NCBI GenBank assembly: GCA_016873165.1
Contig: VGXV01000001.1
Coordinates: 125,643-189,642 of the forward strand
Length of the DNA stretch: 64,000 nucleotides
Source: Planctomycetota bacterium
GTDB lineage: Bacteria; Planctomycetota; Brocadiia; Brocadiales; Brocadiaceae
Reading direction: 5' to 3'
In this document: piece after piece, positions 11,789 to 60,504 of the stretch
Numbering within the stretch: position 1 is the stretch's first letter
Layout of the letters: every line of letters starts with the position of its first letter
Program-made: the position numbers and the translations under genes
The notes under the pieces: generated by a model
Databases searched by the model: none
What the model was told of the DNA's origin: nothing
The model's input: only the letters and a program-made list of their open reading frames with translations

Positions 11789-12646
11789 TTATTGCTGATA
11801 ATTTGAGTAAATCTTTTTCGCACGGTCTGCTACTTGTTTTGCCTCGTTTTCCTTCCCCGTTCCTTTGTAAAATTCTGCCATTTTTTCCAAAATGGTTGCA
11901 ATTAAAGGATGGTCTACGCCGTATTCTTTTTCATATATTTCCAGCGCCTCTTTATAAAGAATCTCGGCCTTTGTGTTTTCACCCTGATAATAATACAGTG
12001 TGGCAAGATTGTTCATTGATGAGGCAATATCGGGATTATCCGGCCCGTAGATTTCTTCTTCAATGGCCAATGCCCTTTTAAGTACCGGAATTGCCTCGGC
12101 ATATTTTTTCTGATCCTGATACAGTTCTCCCAATCTGTTCAGGACATTAATAACACTTGGGTGATACGGGCCATACATATCTTCGTATATTTTGAGAGAT
12201 TGTTGATAAAAAGGCTCGGCTTCGGCATATTTATCCTGAAGGAGATACATTTCCGCCAATTCCTGCTGGACGTAAGCGACATTGGAATGGTCCGGGCCAA
12301 GTGTTTCTTTGTAAATACTGAGCGCCTTATTAAAGAGCGGCTCGGCTTCGGCATATCTGCCGTAGGTGCGGTAGAGAATTCCCAGCAAATTCATTGAAGC
12401 AGCTATGGAGACATGGCCGGGAGGAAACGTTTTCTCCGCAATTTTTAATGCCTCCTGTCCAGACTTTATTCCGTCTGCATATCTCTTGCTTTGCAAAAGA
12501 GAGGCTGTTTCATCATGAAGTTCCTTCCATACATTTTCCTGAGCATATGCAGGCAAAGCATAAGAAAGCACAATCAGTGTTACTGTTAAAAAGAATTTGG
12601 TTCTAAAAAATCTGAGCAATTTCATATTGTTTCCCGGCATTTTCAT
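11789..12646 (-). CDS. Secreted tetratricopeptide-repeat (kinesin-light-chain type) protein
   Basis: About 285 residues. After a signal peptide (FFLTVTLIVLSYALPAYA) come at least five 42-residue TPRs of the TPR_10/12 type, each with the pattern AEPLFNKALSIYKETLGPDHSNVA. Such arrays act as protein-binding scaffolds; the partner is unknown. GGAG lies upstream of the ATG at 12646; a second ATG at 12625 starts directly before the signal-peptide core. The frame remains open for a further 107 codons upstream, but that part merely translates palindromic repeats and is not protein-like. Confidence 0.82.
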   Translation of the reverse strand: MKMPGNNMKLLRFFRTKFFLTVTLIVLSYALPAYAQENVWKELHDETASLLQSKRYADGIKSGQEALKIAEKTFPPGHVSIAASMNLLGILYRTYGRYAEAEPLFNKALSIYKETLGPDHSNVAYVQQELAEMYLLQDKYAEAEPFYQQSLKIYEDMYGPYHPSVINVLNRLGELYQDQKKYAEAIPVLKRALAIEEEIYGPDNPDIASSMNNLATLYYYQGENTKAEILYKEALEIYEKEYGVDHPLIATILEKMAEFYKGTGKENEAKQVADRAKKIYSNYQQ

Positions 12647-12683
12647 AACGGTATTTTCTCCATCTACGGTTTGGCATTTTTTA

Positions 12684-13054
12684 TTAGGCCTTCGGCAACT
12701 TTTAACGGAAGCATTCCCAATTTTTTGTAAATCAAAATAAAGCCGACCATAAAGGATCGGCGCTACCATGCAATATGTGTCGTAGCGCGGGTGGTTTATC
12801 CCCCGCATAATACCTCCACATTTTACAAAAAATCGGGAATGCTCCCCTTTTAACAGAGTAGGGTGGGCATCGCCCACCAAACGTAGAGACGCATTGCTAT
12901 GCGTCTCTACAAGCAACGTGAGACGGTGGGCAATGCCCACCCTACAACGATTGAAATTCCTTATCATTTAATAAGGCTTTCGGCTACTTTTAACAACGCG
13001 GTAGCAAGGCACGCCTTGCCACTACATGAACAGTTTGAAATTCCTTAACGTTAA
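12684..13054 (+). repeat. Two tandem modular intergenic repeats (family with constant ends)
   Basis: The first unit starts with TTAGGCCTTCGGCAACTTTT (from 12685) and ends with TTGAAATTCCTTA (12951-12963). The second starts with AAGGCTTTCGGCTACTTTTA (from 12972) and ends with TTGAAATTCCTTAACGTTAA (from 13034). The first carries the 114-bp repeat, then a GGTGGGC palindrome interrupted by a GAGACGCA palindrome. The second carries a short AAGGC/GCCTT palindrome. Related units with the same end sequences occur elsewhere in the window. The region between the TPR gene and glnN is otherwise empty. Confidence 0.8.
12710..12823 (-). repeat. 114-bp repeat, inverted identical copy at 45893-46006
   Basis: Base-by-base comparison shows no mismatch over 114 bp between this copy (reverse complement) and 45893-46006. 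It contains two hairpins, GCGGG...CCCGC and GCCGA...TCGGC, and ends in the recurrent motif ACAAAAAATTGGGAATGC. No coding role is apparent. Confidence 0.9.
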
Positions 13055-24961: not shown

Positions 24962-26665
24962 TCATTCCTCAGTCTGCAAGGATTTCAATTTGTTATAGAT
25001 TTTCAGTTCCGTTTGAGCCTCTGAATTCATGCCTTTTTCTTTGTAAAGAAACCATAAGTTTTTGTGCGCATCAATATCGTCAGGAGCGATATCCGCCAGT
25101 TTCGAAAAAACTTCGAGCGCCTCATCCTGTTTTCCGATCTTTTTATAGATATTTCCCAAATTGTAATAAGCATTCACAAAAGCCGGATCAATAGTAACCG
25201 CTTGTTCCCATAAGGGGAGTGCGGAAGCATACATATTTTTTTCTGCGTAAGCATTTCCTAATTTGTAACATATCAATGCATTATCAGGATATATCTCAAT
25301 AATTTTTTCCCATGTCTTTATTGCCTTGTCTTTTTTGCCTTTCGCTTCGTATGCGTCTGCAATGTTATTCAACGTGGTATAATCGTCAGGGTTGATTTTA
25401 AGCGCCTTTAACCACAGAGAAATAGCATTATCAATTTTCCCCTGGTTGTAAAATGCAACACCCAGATTAAAATATGCGTCTGCATTCGTTGGATTTATTT
25501 CCAGAGTCTTTTTCCATGCGGTAATGGATTTGGCAATTTCTCCGGTGGCAGCGGATAATTCACCATAATTATAAAATGCTTCCTCATAATTCGGATCATC
25601 AGAAAAGGCGTTTTCATATTCCGCCAGCGCCTTTTCCGGCATGTTACTCTCTGCATAAATTTCCCCAAGTTTAAAATGTGCAGGAGCAATGGCATCGTTG
25701 ATTGCTATTGCTTGTTCAAGCGATTCTATTGCTTCTTTTGAGCTGCCTTCTTTACTGTAAATCAGTCCAAGATTGTAATGTGCCTCTGCAAAATCAGGTT
25801 TTAACCGCAATGCAAAAGCAAAAGCATCTTTTGCCTCTTTTACGTTATTTTGAGCAAAAAGCGCAATTCCCAGATTGTTATAAGCATCAGTATAATTATT
25901 TTTCAGTTGAATGGCAATTTTGTGTGAAAAAATGGATTTTTCAATATCATCCGTTTCATAATAAATAATACCCGAGTAATTATGAGCTTCCGCATCCTTC
26001 GGATTCAAATCGAGCGTTTTTTGAAATTCCATAAGCGCTTTTTTTGAAAGGTTTTTCCTGTAAAATGCGAGTCCCAGACTAAAATGAAAATCGGAATTCT
26101 CCGCATCAAGTGAGATAGCTTTTTTTAAAAACTCTATGCTTTCATTTAATTGATCTTTTTCGAGATGTAAAAGCGCCATAGTGTAATAGGCATCTGCCAC
26201 AGACGGATCTAATTCCAGGCACTTATTGAGAGCAGAAAAAGCTTCTGTAAAATCGTTTTTCTTCTTGTATGCAAGACCAAGATCATTGTATGCCCCTGCT
26301 TTTCCTGAAGTATTAGATTTGTCGTAATACGTGATGGCATTATTTAAATCATTAATAGCTTTCCCAAGTTGATCGGTTTCGAGATAAGCTTTGCCTAAAT
26401 AATGATACAATTCTCCATCCTGATGTATGCCCTGCAATGCAAAATTAAACTCATCAATGGCTTCCTCTGTCATTCCCTTTTTAAAATACGTGATGCCTAA
26501 AGATTTGTGTTCTTTTGCGGATAATGCTCCGGTCAGTTTGCCGGTAATGGAACGCAGATAACCGCCTTTTGTGGTACTCTTATCTTTTGTATCATATGAA
26601 GAACTGCATGCTACCGGGAAAAAAAGAAGAAGATATGCAACACAGCAAAGTCTTTTTATGTTCAT
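24962..26665 (-). CDS. TPR-repeat lipoprotein
   Basis: About 567 residues. VAYLLLFFPVACSS has a lipobox with Cys20, so the protein is probably lipid-anchored. Around thirteen consecutive 34-residue TPRs follow, starting near residue 52 (HKSLGITYFKKGMTEEAIDEFNFAL) and continuing to the C-terminus, with the usual W/L-G-Y-A-F-A-P positions. Partners are unknown; such proteins scaffold envelope complexes. The frame is open for 34 further codons upstream, but these translate a palindromic repeat, so the ATG at 26665 is chosen. The ribosome site is weak. Confidence 0.85.
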   Translation of the reverse strand: MNIKRLCCVAYLLLFFPVACSSSYDTKDKSTTKGGYLRSITGKLTGALSAKEHKSLGITYFKKGMTEEAIDEFNFALQGIHQDGELYHYLGKAYLETDQLGKAINDLNNAITYYDKSNTSGKAGAYNDLGLAYKKKNDFTEAFSALNKCLELDPSVADAYYTMALLHLEKDQLNESIEFLKKAISLDAENSDFHFSLGLAFYRKNLSKKALMEFQKTLDLNPKDAEAHNYSGIIYYETDDIEKSIFSHKIAIQLKNNYTDAYNNLGIALFAQNNVKEAKDAFAFALRLKPDFAEAHYNLGLIYSKEGSSKEAIESLEQAIAINDAIAPAHFKLGEIYAESNMPEKALAEYENAFSDDPNYEEAFYNYGELSAATGEIAKSITAWKKTLEINPTNADAYFNLGVAFYNQGKIDNAISLWLKALKINPDDYTTLNNIADAYEAKGKKDKAIKTWEKIIEIYPDNALICYKLGNAYAEKNMYASALPLWEQAVTIDPAFVNAYYNLGNIYKKIGKQDEALEVFSKLADIAPDDIDAHKNLWFLYKEKGMNSEAQTELKIYNKLKSLQTEE

Positions 26666-26669
26666 GTTT

Positions 26670-26735
26670 AGGAATTTCAATCTTAGTAGGGTGGGCATTG
26701 CCCACCCTACAGTTAAAAGTCGCCGAAGGCCTAAT
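26670..26735 (-). repeat. Short modular intergenic repeat upstream of the TPR lipoprotein gene
   Basis: Read on the minus strand it starts ATTAGGCCTTCGGCGACTTT, contains the palindrome GTAGGGTGGGC-AAT-GCCCACCCTAC, and ends TTGAAATTCC. It is the smallest full member of the family with constant ends described at 12684. Confidence 0.8.
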
Positions 26736-30577: not shown

Positions 30578-30591
30578 AAGTGCGTTATATA

Positions 30592-30733
30592 GTCAAACAA
30601 AACTGGTTTTCGATTAGTCTTTTAATGCTTCGACTCCGCTCAGCATGACGAAGCTGTCATCCTGAGCGGAGTCGAAGGGTTGTGTTTCTGAGTAAAAACT
30701 TATTTGATATTTCGAAAACCAGATTTGTTTGAC
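30592..30733. mobile_element. MITE-like element, 142 bp, flanked by TA
   Basis: The ends are inverted repeats: GTCAAACAAAACTGGTTTTC at the left and GTCAAACAAATCTGGTTTTC reading in from the right (one mismatch in 22). TA flanks both ends, as expected for TA-targeting IS630/mariner-type transposition. The interior is a CTTCGACTCCGCTCAGC palindrome also found at 40687, 43970 and 47766. No coding capacity. The right end supplies the G of the TAG stop of the neighbouring gene. Confidence 0.75.
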
Positions 30734-31035
30734 TACAACCTGGAACTATTTATTTCCTTAACCAATATTCGAATTAATTTTTCGTAAGATTTAAAAACGG
30801 TTTCCTTATCCTTTTTATCAATAAGTTTTAAAGGGTGTTTTTCTATTTCGGTCAGAAGATTATCTATCATAGCCGAAATTGAAGATGGGGAAGTTTTATC
30901 AAATAAAGGAGATTTTGAGAGATCCGATTCCTGTATGTCTTCTTTAATAATGCGACTTTTCTTTGCGGAAGATTTTTCACGTGAAGTGGATTTTTTTGGT
31001 TGTCCACCGGGTGTGGATTTGTTTTTTTCACTCAT
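30733..31035 (-). CDS. Small charged hypothetical protein, C-terminus set by a MITE junction
   Basis: 100 residues with GGGGAGA before the ATG. Residues 1-35 are Lys/Ser-rich and probably disordered (PKKSTSREKSSAKKSR); residues 55-97 look like two amphipathic helices (ISAMIDNLLTEIEKH, DKETVFKSYEKLIRILVKEI). I do not recognise a family. The stop codon is formed by the TA target plus the first base of the MITE-like element, so the original C-terminus may have been longer. Confidence 0.65.
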   Translation of the reverse strand: MSEKNKSTPGGQPKKSTSREKSSAKKSRIIKEDIQESDLSKSPLFDKTSPSSISAMIDNLLTEIEKHPLKLIDKKDKETVFKSYEKLIRILVKEINSSRL

Positions 31036-34182: not shown

Positions 34183-34785
34183 TAAAAATATATTCGTGAC
34201 AACATATACGGCAAAACATACCGCCATCTGCCCTTGGATTCAGTATTTAGTCGTTTTTTGTCGAGGGAAAATATCCGATTTTGTAATTACACACCCCGTC
34301 GGCTGCGCTGCCACCCCTTTTTTAGAAGGGATTATACCTTGCATACGTTTCCTATTAACGTGCAAGTCGCCTCTATTAACATTGAAAGGCTAAACATTAA
34401 AATAAACGGCGATGTCACTATTTTCTTTATTGTTGGGTTTCGTGCCTCAACCCAACCTTATAACTGGTCAGGATTGCAGCGAAAAAGCGGCCGCTCGTGT
34501 GCAAATACAATTTGCCCATGAAAGAAAATCTTCCGCATGGGAACTCATTCCATTCGTGAAGTAATGCCTGCGGTATTGGGCTATCAATTCAATATTACCG
34601 GGACCACTGCATGAACAGTTTAAAATTCCTTAATATTAAAATAAACGGTCACTATCACTATTATCTGAATAATTAAGTATGGTGTCCCCGGAATTCCAGA
34701 ATTCAAATGTTTTATTGATTTTATTTTTATTTTCTCTATACTCATGAAATTATGCCTTTTCAATCATATTATCTGGAGAAACATT
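34183..34785. other. Non-coding region with palindromic repeats
   Basis: About 600 bp without a credible gene. A hairpin GTTGGGTT-TCGTGCC-TCAACCCAAC lies near 34433-34459, and GAACAGTTTAAAATTCCTTA at 34613-34632 is an isolated right end of the modular repeat family. The segment lies between a truncated duplicate and a toxin-antitoxin island and is probably insertion debris. Confidence 0.55.
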
Positions 34786-40644: not shown

Positions 40645-40817
40645 GGGAGCATTCACAAATTGTTGTAAAATTCCTTATAGAAATGTATGCTTCGACTTCG
40701 CTCAGCATGACCGTCTTTGTAACCCTGAGCGGAGCCGAAGGGCTATGTTTCTAAAGTATTGTCTTTAAGCCGATATCTCACAACGTTATTCTTTCGCTAC
40801 AATTTGTGAATGCTCCC
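40645..40817. repeat. Inverted-repeat-bounded element around a CTTCGACT palindrome
   Basis: GGGAGCATTCACAAATTGT at the left recurs as ACAATTTGTGAATGCTCCC at the right (19 bp perfect), enclosing 135 bp with the CGCTCAGCATGAC/CCTGAGCG palindrome. The structure is MITE-like, but no target duplication is evident. It fills the gap between the prenyl synthase gene and efp. Confidence 0.65.
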
Positions 40818-43379: not shown

Positions 43380-43458
43380 ATTTAAGACTTTCGGTTTTAA
43401 TGTAAAGCGAGGAGACTCTTCGCTCTACAAACACGATTTTGAAATTCCTTAACGTTAA
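43380..43458 (+). repeat. Modular intergenic repeat, short form
   Basis: GACTTTCGGTTTTAATGTAA at the left, the palindrome AGCGAGGAGACTCTTCGCT in the middle, and TTGAAATTCCTTAACGTTAA at the right (from 43438), which is identical over those 20 bases to the right end at 13034. Confidence 0.65.
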
Positions 43459-43847: not shown

Positions 43848-44186
43848 TTTAATTAGTCCTTCGGTAACTTTTATTTAATACAACTGTAGGGCGAGCCTGC
43901 CTGGCGATAGGCAGGGCTTTACCCTTGCCGGGAGCAGTCCCGGTTTCTTGTAACTTATCATTTATTATGCTTCGGCTCCGCTCAGCATGACGCTTAGAGT
44001 CACCCTGAGCGGAGTCGAAGGGTTGAGTTTCTCAGTGTGTTGAGGAGCTTTTCATATCAGAATATATGTTAATTGTTTTTTTTACAAGAAATCGGGAACG
44101 CTCCCGCCTTGCTTATCCTCTGTATGCGTTCACGGAATTGCAACCCTAAAGGATTGCCCTGCATGAACAGATTGAAATTCCTTAAC
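43848..44186 (+). repeat. Long modular intergenic repeat with several palindromes
   Basis: Starts TTTAATTAGTCCTTCGGTAA and ends TTGAAATTCCTTAACATAAA (from 44171). The interior contains CCTGCCTGGCGATAGGCAGG, CCGGGAGCAGTCCCGG, a CTCCGCTCAGCATGAC/CCTGAGCGGAG palindrome at 43975-44018, and ACAAGAAATCGGGAACGCTC. No gene is present in this 470-bp gap upstream of fabG's 3' end. Confidence 0.7.
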
Positions 44187-44269
44187 ATAAATTGTATTCT
44201 TTTCCTTTGTAGCTCCGTGCCTCTGTGAGAGAATTCATCTCATTTGAAAAAAATATTGCTTCCCGGATG

Positions 44270-47463: not shown

Positions 47464-48088
47464 TTTTTTTATTATTTATTTGGGTTGAACAATAATTATA
47501 CAGTCTGTATAAACCAACCGGCAACCCATCGACCGGGCTTCAGACACCGTGACCTCTTTTGCTCTAAACATGAGTATAGATCATCGTCATGCTTAGGAGA
47601 TGATAAAAGATTGCTTTTCTTTGAAATCAAGTATGGTATGGGAGCATTCCCGATTTTTTGCAACCGTTTATGGGATCGGTGTGGGTAGGGTGGATAAAGG
47701 CGCTGGTTTTTGCGCCGTATCCACCAACAATTATCGCATAAATGGTGGATTCGCTCCGCTTAATCCACCCTACAAGGCTCCGCTCAGCATGACATGCTTT
47801 TTTATAGATAACATTCACGGTCACCCTGAGCCCTTCGCTTATGTCATGCTGAGCGGAGTCGAAGCATCTTTTACCGCTCAGGATAAACTCCGTCGAAGGG
47901 CTGCGTTTTCCTGTAAATTGAAGATGTTTTCATATCCGGCATGATATACGGTAGTCGATTTTTCACAAAAAATCGGGAATGCCCCCGTATGGTATCTCCG
48001 GAATTCCCATAGAGACGCATAGCAATGCGTCTCTACGTTTGATGGGTAATGCCCACCCTGCTCTGTTAAAAGTTCCTGAAGTTCCAAT
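47464..48088. repeat. Composite of nested palindromic repeats, no gene
   Basis: About 625 bp. It begins with ATCGACCGGGCTTCAGAC near 47527, which resembles part of the neighbouring attC site. Then come GGGTAGGGTGGATAA...TTAATCCACCCTAC (about 47680-47773), CTCCGCTCAGCATGAC, CCCTGAGC and GTCATGCTGAGCGGAG palindromes (47766-47903), ACAAAAAATCGGGAATGC (from 47965), TAGAGACGCATAGCAATGCG (from 48012) and the left end of the modular repeat in reverse (CTGTTAAAAGTTCC, 48061-48074). No protein-like frame. Confidence 0.7.
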
Positions 48089-48598
48089 TTATTTCCTTAT
48101 GTTCCCCGTAAACACGAAATCATTATCGGCAACTCCCACATGGCACCCGATGCATACTTCTCCCTTTCCTTCCAGTTTAACTTCCCCGTCCGGTTTGTAT
48201 TTGACCCAGTACCAGTCGTTTCCCTTCGGATTGAAACCCTTCGCCTTGTACATTACCGTCAATAACGACACCTTCTTTTCTTCCGTATAAATTTCTTTTA
48301 TGAGGAGGGAACCATTGGGAAACATTCCTTTCTTGTTGACAATCGTATCCAGCGCAAGGTCGTTTACATACAGCCGCAGTATATCACCCGGAGGCATAGT
48401 GCTCTCATAGATACCTTCCTTTCCAGGCCATGCCGGATAGCGCCCGTAGGGATTTTCCTTTGTCATATATTCCCATAATTTCCGTGCATTTATTGTTTCA
48501 CTTGGAAATGGCGCCTCGGCAGTTCCTGTTTTATGCTGCATACAGAACATGGCCGCCAGCGCAATAATAAGAGAGCATATCATTTTGCCTTTGTTCAC
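48089..48598 (-). CDS. Cytochrome P460-family c-type cytochrome
   Basis: 169 residues from a GTG with AAGGAC upstream; an earlier GTG lies inside the hicB-like gene. A signal peptide (MICSLIIALAAMFCMQ) sends it to the periplasmic side (or anammoxosome). ARKLWEYM, PPGDILRLYVND, KKGMFPNGSLLIKEIY and WYWVKYKPDGEV are cytochrome_P460 domain features, with the haem c motif CIGCH at 149-153 near the C-terminus. P460 cytochromes oxidise hydroxylamine or NO using a Lys-crosslinked haem; Lys101 or a nearby Lys could be that link, which I infer and cannot prove. Confidence 0.8.
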   Translation of the reverse strand: MNKGKMICSLIIALAAMFCMQHKTGTAEAPFPSETINARKLWEYMTKENPYGRYPAWPGKEGIYESTMPPGDILRLYVNDLALDTIVNKKGMFPNGSLLIKEIYTEEKKVSLLTVMYKAKGFNPKGNDWYWVKYKPDGEVKLEGKGEVCIGCHVGVADNDFVFTGNIRK

Positions 48599-53519: not shown

Positions 53520-53582
53520 TTTCTCATAAACTCCTTTCTTTTTTCATCTTTCACTACAAAATAGTATACTTTTATTATTTCA

Positions 53583-53700
53583 ATGTTAAGGAATTTCAAA
53601 CTTTGTAGGGTGGGCATTGCCCACCGTCTCACGTTGCTTACCTTTTTTGGTGGGCGATGCCCACCCTACTCTGTTAAAAGTTGCCGAATATCTAATTTAA
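53583..53700 (-). repeat. Modular intergenic repeat, close relative of that at 12849
   Basis: Read on the minus strand it matches 12849-12962 (TTTTAACAGAGTAGGGTGGG, ... GGTGGGCAATGCCCACCCTA, TTGAAATTCCTTAA), but lacks the inserted CGTAGAGACGCATTGC palindrome, having AAAAGGTA instead. It occupies the space between the secreted duplicated protein gene and the NUMOD1 gene. Confidence 0.8.

Positions 53701-59953: not shown

Positions 59954-60504
<551 letters not shown>

Follow-up and report, generated by a model that had tools for sequence, protein, structure and literature searches.

A family of probably mobile intergenic repeats with constant ends and exchangeable palindromic interiors in Brocadiaceae genomes

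BOX (boxA-boxBn-boxC; boxE/boxF), known from Streptococcus pneumoniae and S. suis, is the closest precedent for the repeat family described here (F1); the resemblance is one of design only, and F1 is not claimed as a member. Both are intergenic and multi-copy and consist of constant end modules around variable middles, and S. suis has the same boxB modules enclosed by two different pairs of ends (PMC3049150). BOX, however, has terminal inverted repeats, target duplications and one repeated kind of middle, whereas F1 has no detectable duplication and at least 8 unrelated palindromic middles, some of which also occur in other frames. Compared with BOX, the cores of F1 are more diverse and interchangeable, and its modules are common to several frames.

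Other described systems share further features with F1. PATEs and the ends of IS200/IS605 elements similarly lack clear inverted repeats and carry a hairpin near the left end, a short fixed left target without duplication and a non-coding length (PMC3119063, PMC7290912); F1 differs in that no linked TnpA or TnpB gene was found, in its inconstant right palindrome and in its hairpin-free right end of 20 nt. Other small repeats insert into the palindromes of PATEs, and SMR-A, the short mobile repeats of Haloquadratum, likewise lie inside palindromes of other mobile elements (PMC3119063), whereas the interiors of F1 often replace a core instead of interrupting it and are only putative as independent elements. 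REPs tagged with GTAG are known in Planctomycetes (PMC3733652), and together with REPINs and BIMEs they resemble F1 in their GTAG (and CTAC) tagged palindromes and mosaic arrangement (PMC3733652, PMC2817692). In F1, by contrast, it is the ends, which are not palindromic, that stay constant; several interiors are untagged, and no RAYT gene of G000 was found flanked by the repeats. MITEs are, like F1, short, non-coding, intergenic, multi-copy and presumably moved in trans, but F1 shows only a 5-bp imperfect inversion and no duplication, which sets it apart from the families F2 and F3 of the same genomes. A published description of F1 was not found in the open literature searched, which omits most subscription journals.

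The window, which is the whole stretch of 64,000 nucleotides that was analysed, corresponds to C1:125643-189642 of the source genome G000, a draft of 4.05 Mb in 191 contigs that probably belongs to a Kuenenia-like anammox bacterium. In profiles the left end L reads TTAGGCCTTCGGCRACTTTTAAC and the right end R TTTGAAATTCCTWAACRTTAA, and F1 denotes the units formed by the two. The units predicted earlier, with their constant left and right ends, are all present with small coordinate shifts. Unit 1 (12684..12970, + strand) contains L at 12684-12706 (matched site 12684-12705), a nested F2 element at 12707-12846, the palindromes GTGGGC, AGACGC and GTGGGC at 12862-12878, 12884-12909 and 12925-12941, and R at 12951-12970. 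It is followed head to tail by unit 2 (12972..13054, +), with L at 12972-12993, a GGCAAGG palindrome and R at 13035-13054. Where this pair stands (12684-13054), G001 has an empty TTAAATTA site. The longest reading of an ORF for a TPR protein (11789-12967, -) enters unit 1, the repeat sequence of which could be mis-annotated as the N-terminus of that protein.

One GTGGGC palindrome is enclosed by the unit at 26661..26734 (-; L 26713-26734, R 26661-26680) and two by that at 53580..53695 (-; L 53674-53695, a weaker match; R 53580-53599). The unit at 43853..44191 (+; L 43853-43874, R 44172-44191) surrounds a likely nested F2 copy at 43930-44105, which holds a CTCCGCTCAG palindrome. Near 43380 the predicted unit (43382..43458, +, interior GCGAGGAGACTCTTCGC) retains an intact R at 43439-43458, but its left end is degenerate. 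The isolated right end, placed before at 34613, lies at 34620..34639 (+) with 2 mismatches and is accompanied by the tail of a GGCAAGG-type interior, CCACTGCATGAACAGT. A degenerate remnant at 48010..48090 (-, inverted repeat) has AGACGC and GTGGGC palindromes and a decayed L.

At up to 3 mismatches G000 contains 60 L sites and 88 R sites genome-wide, against 1 and 6 for reversed control patterns in the same genome. In a genome-wide search for both ends in order, 36 of the 60 L sites are followed by an R on their own strand at a distance of no more than 350 bp, where 0.23 are expected by chance; the ends thus co-occur in order beyond chance across the genome. The sole L–R neighbours on opposite strands within 800 bp are 450 bp apart. 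Twelve L sites stand at a fixed spacing of -42/-43 behind an R, so that tandem units abut head to tail. L–R spacings are mostly 31-118 nt, and the units are short (mostly about 70-170 bp), non-coding and without a gene. They are almost always intergenic, and the arrangement of the neighbouring genes (36 >>, 28 <<, 11 ><, 9 <>) indicates no preferred orientation. An intergenic position, stable hairpins and stem changes that preserve pairing would also be expected if the units were regulators, terminators or mRNA stabilisers under selection and not mobile DNA. Such a functional RNA is nevertheless very improbable given the indifference to gene orientation, the tandem stacking, the empty sites in sister species and the fact that a comparison of the window with Rfam gave no match at gathering thresholds. 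A terminator reading in particular was dropped because gene arrangement is unpreferred and R has no T tract.

From left to right, an F1 unit consists of the target TTWA(A), (A)TTAG, the left hairpin, RACTTTTAAC, at least one palindrome and then the right end. The left end is constant as proposed, but as a hairpin-bearing structure and not as one fixed sequence: TTAG (or TCAG) precedes a hairpin of varying stem, which is followed by RACTTT(T). The stems include GCC/GGC, the wobble pair GTC/GGC, GCTGCC/GGCAGC and GTTGGGTTTT/AAAACCCAAC, and one copy has a compensated GAC/GTC in place of GCC/GGC. R is a conserved end of 20 nt without a hairpin. The palindrome before R is variable, being missing or decayed in some copies, and lies at least 25 nt from the right border. 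Terminal inversion in the profiles is limited to TTAGG/CCTWA, which is imperfect and offset by 2-3 nt. An integron attC reading of CCTWAACRTTAA was dropped because the G required by GTTRRRY is A in 64% of copies.

The interiors in G000 belong to at least 8 unrelated classes, mostly palindromic. The predicted modular family with exchangeable interiors is supported by the genome-wide data and by the between-species data below. Between L and R, the GGCAAGG interior occupies 41 nt and one GTGGGC palindrome about 32; GTGGGC-AGACGC-GTGGGC is longer at about 98, as are CGCCGGCC at 75 and CGAAGC at 64. Further classes include CTCCGCTCAG, CCCACCCCTAACCCC, CCCCCTTAG and others. The palindromes are often tagged GTAG...CTAC, the GTAG tag being present in interior classes A, B, C, D and E and absent from F, G, H and J. 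In other genera the same ends enclose other palindromes, and the central palindromes keep their pairing while their sequence changes from genus to genus; Brocadia, for instance, has GTAGTGGCAATTCATGAATTGCCACTAC and Kuenenia GTAGTGGCAAGGCGCGCCTTGCCACTAC. The '114-bp repeat' of the original prediction is not an interior class; it is a nested 140-bp inverted-repeat element with ends GGGAGCATTCCC...GGGAATGCTCCC and an exact 8-bp duplication, CTTTTAAC.

For comparison with sister species, the flanks of 21 unit clusters were placed in G002 (roughly 80-85% identity) or G001. Empty or short sites occur in relatives at eight loci, each of which may reflect gain or loss. Besides the site of units 1 and 2 they include TGAAATTA at C3:128043, TTTAATTA at C1:96547 and TTTAATGT at C21:38566, with further examples at C3:134359, C1:95197, C24:29852 and C36:27058. 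The empty sites show that F1 inserts at an AT-rich, nearly palindromic TTWAATTA, and the profile of the left flank gives the short fixed target TTWAA. No copy-specific target-site duplication was detected at F1 at several offsets and lengths. An 8-bp duplication of TTWAATTA was considered and rejected, as the flanks are alike on average, yet the left copy does not follow the right one from unit to unit. The exact 8-9 bp duplications of F2 and F3 serve as positive controls for this test, which F1 fails. At C3:134359 (L075) the unit lies in the 3' end of a gene and alters its final codons: the product ends in ..CQKFLKGDTT in G002 and in ..CQKFLNV in G000. The native sequence at this position, GAAATTCCTGAA, resembles the R end. 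Replication-linked orientation of the units is not significant in the complete genome G001.

At the empty sites the mobile boundary coincides with L and R. This bears on whether the palindromes themselves could be the mobile parts, moved by RAYTs, with L and R as nothing but preferred landing sequences. The GTAG-palindrome-CTAC form of many interiors is the tag of GTAG REPs, and Y1/RAYT-like genes exist in these genomes, the Y1 proteins being about 330 aa, the size of a RAYT. Several interior classes have no GTAG, however, and around the 13 Y1 genes of G000 a search for interior palindromes gave only a single GGCAAGG copy near one gene fragment. Together with the position of the boundary, this makes a REP or REPIN origin highly doubtful.

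The preferred reading, with a probability of roughly 0.6, is that F1 is a transposase-less mobile element moved in trans, with exchangeable cores that are probably replaced in place. The two ends would be recognised by an enzyme supplied in trans, and the core would be free to change; units insert between genes at TTWAATTA, without detectable duplication, and copies can stack head to tail. A more specific possibility, judged unlikely, is that F1 is a PATE-type element reduced to the ends of an IS200/IS605-like (HUH, single-strand) transposon. The left hairpin would then act as the left palindrome and the last central palindrome as the right one, and TTWAA would be the target that the enzyme reads. 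The asymmetric ends, the hairpin directly behind TTAG, the conserved TTWAA flank, the missing duplication and the Y1 proteins encoded in these genomes agree with it, and PATEs similarly have near-terminal palindromes, no duplications and a 5' target of 4-5 bp (PMC3119063). Against it, none of 43 Y1 loci from a subset of Brocadiaceae genomes is flanked by L and R, and TnpB is essentially absent, with one weak sub-threshold match in six genomes. The inconstant right palindrome, set well back from the border, also speaks against it, as does the lack of replication-linked orientation in G001, though this is not a requirement. Among the stretches examined for a long, gene-bearing L...R copy, three spans were seen and none is convincing.

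Core turnover is seen at four clear orthologous loci, where both species have a unit in identical place and orientation but with different cores. At C1:152303 (window 26661-26734) G000 has GTGGGC and G002 an interior of the CCCACCCC type; the other three are C18:60192 (GTGGGC/AGACGC versus CTCCGCTCGG), C24:25696 (GTGGGC versus CATGCTGAGCGG) and C8:81040 (GTGGGC versus AGACGC, with the left ends lost). Three weaker loci are degenerate or related (C1:138326 in G002, C3:123611 and C2:15382), and at C2:15382 an identical GTGGGC module is present in both species in a different arrangement. At none of the compared loci is the complete interior identical in both species. Orientation agrees at 7/7 co-occupied sites, a small number for which the orthologous alleles were read by eye.

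Non-autonomous elements often have only their ends in common. The interior classes could accordingly be separate elements that share one enzyme and inserted independently at common TTWAATTA sites, with no exchange of cores. The target is specific enough for reuse and some sites are empty in one species, and such repeated use of hot spots is a possibility, albeit a doubtful one. The agreement in orientation, despite a nearly palindromic target, argues against random re-insertion without proving exchange, and weakly favours exchange in place over loss and re-insertion at the same site. On its own, independent insertion leaves unexplained the recurrence of modules in frames that have different ends. 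Under the preferred reading, that of a frame moved in trans, the cores are probably replaced in place, since the frame stays at one site in one orientation even where two species differ in their interiors. Hairpin modules of different units may recombine, or a template switch may occur between them, with nested insertions as a possible aid; the recurrence of some modules inside three other MITE-like families suggests such an exchange.

The first of these families, F2, has GGGAGCATTCCCGATTTTTTGTAA inverted ends and cores of 98-496 bp; it is found in the window at 12707-12846, 40645-40817, 43930-44105 and 47640-47986, and across its 19 distinct copies, which have exact 8-9 bp duplications, the cores are very diverse. 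F3 (window 60339-60479), with inverted ends GTAACACTTTAGTTTTTTGAAAAA, has varied cores that include CCCTGACAGGGTT and GGCAAGG palindromes, and exact 8-9 bp duplications flank 16 of 29 copies when the borders are moved outward by at most 4 bp. F4 (ends TAGTCAAACAAA) is an inverted repeat, TAGTCAAACAAAACTGG, represented at 30590-30735 with a CTCCGCTCAG core; it has TA on its flanks, which looks like an IS630/mariner-type target. The GGCAAGG module is common to F1 and F3, the CTCCGCTCAG module to F1, F2 and F4, and the GGTGGATT/AATCCACC and CCCTGACAGGGTT palindromes to F1, F2 and F3. Nesting, as in the likely F2 copy inside 43853-44191, may account for part of this sharing.

The sharing suggests that a short palindrome is able to pass from one mobile frame to another, unrelated one. 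This is relevant to a long-standing question, the origin of the cores in MITEs, BOX and BIME-type mosaics. Tentatively, anammox genomes might hold a common pool of small palindromic cassettes. Several unrelated transposase-less repeat families would exchange these in place and in register, perhaps through gene conversion or through template switching driven by hairpins, with the result that ends and cores would evolve independently. Orthologous F1 sites allow core replacement to be followed. Because F1 interiors differ between copies and species, and some also sit in unrelated repeat families, Kuenenia or Brocadia strain series allow the shuffling of small DNA modules to be tested directly.

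F1 is a Brocadiaceae-wide repeat, numbering dozens to hundreds of copies in anammox bacteria. At no more than 2 mismatches L was recovered from 31 of the 33 Brocadiaceae genomes and, outside that family, is present in 8 genomes of one genus of another family (f4) of the same order; it is absent from the sampled genomes of three further families of the order (f2, f3 and f5). A sample of 294 genomes from the phylum gave 14 positives, all of them Brocadiaceae, and L was not found in the sampled Planctomycetota outside the order. Among 84,980 species genomes the named carriers of the exact left-end core are Brocadia pituitae, Brocadia sp. WS118, Kuenenia hertensis and two MAGs, B4_bin.26 from the Brocadiaceae and another from the Planctomycetota. 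R sites number 239 in G014, 129 in G024 and 64 in G020, and control patterns gave few matches. G014, which belongs to genus g6 of the Brocadiaceae, has the most R sites of the genomes counted; it may have been active recently and may hold an autonomous partner.
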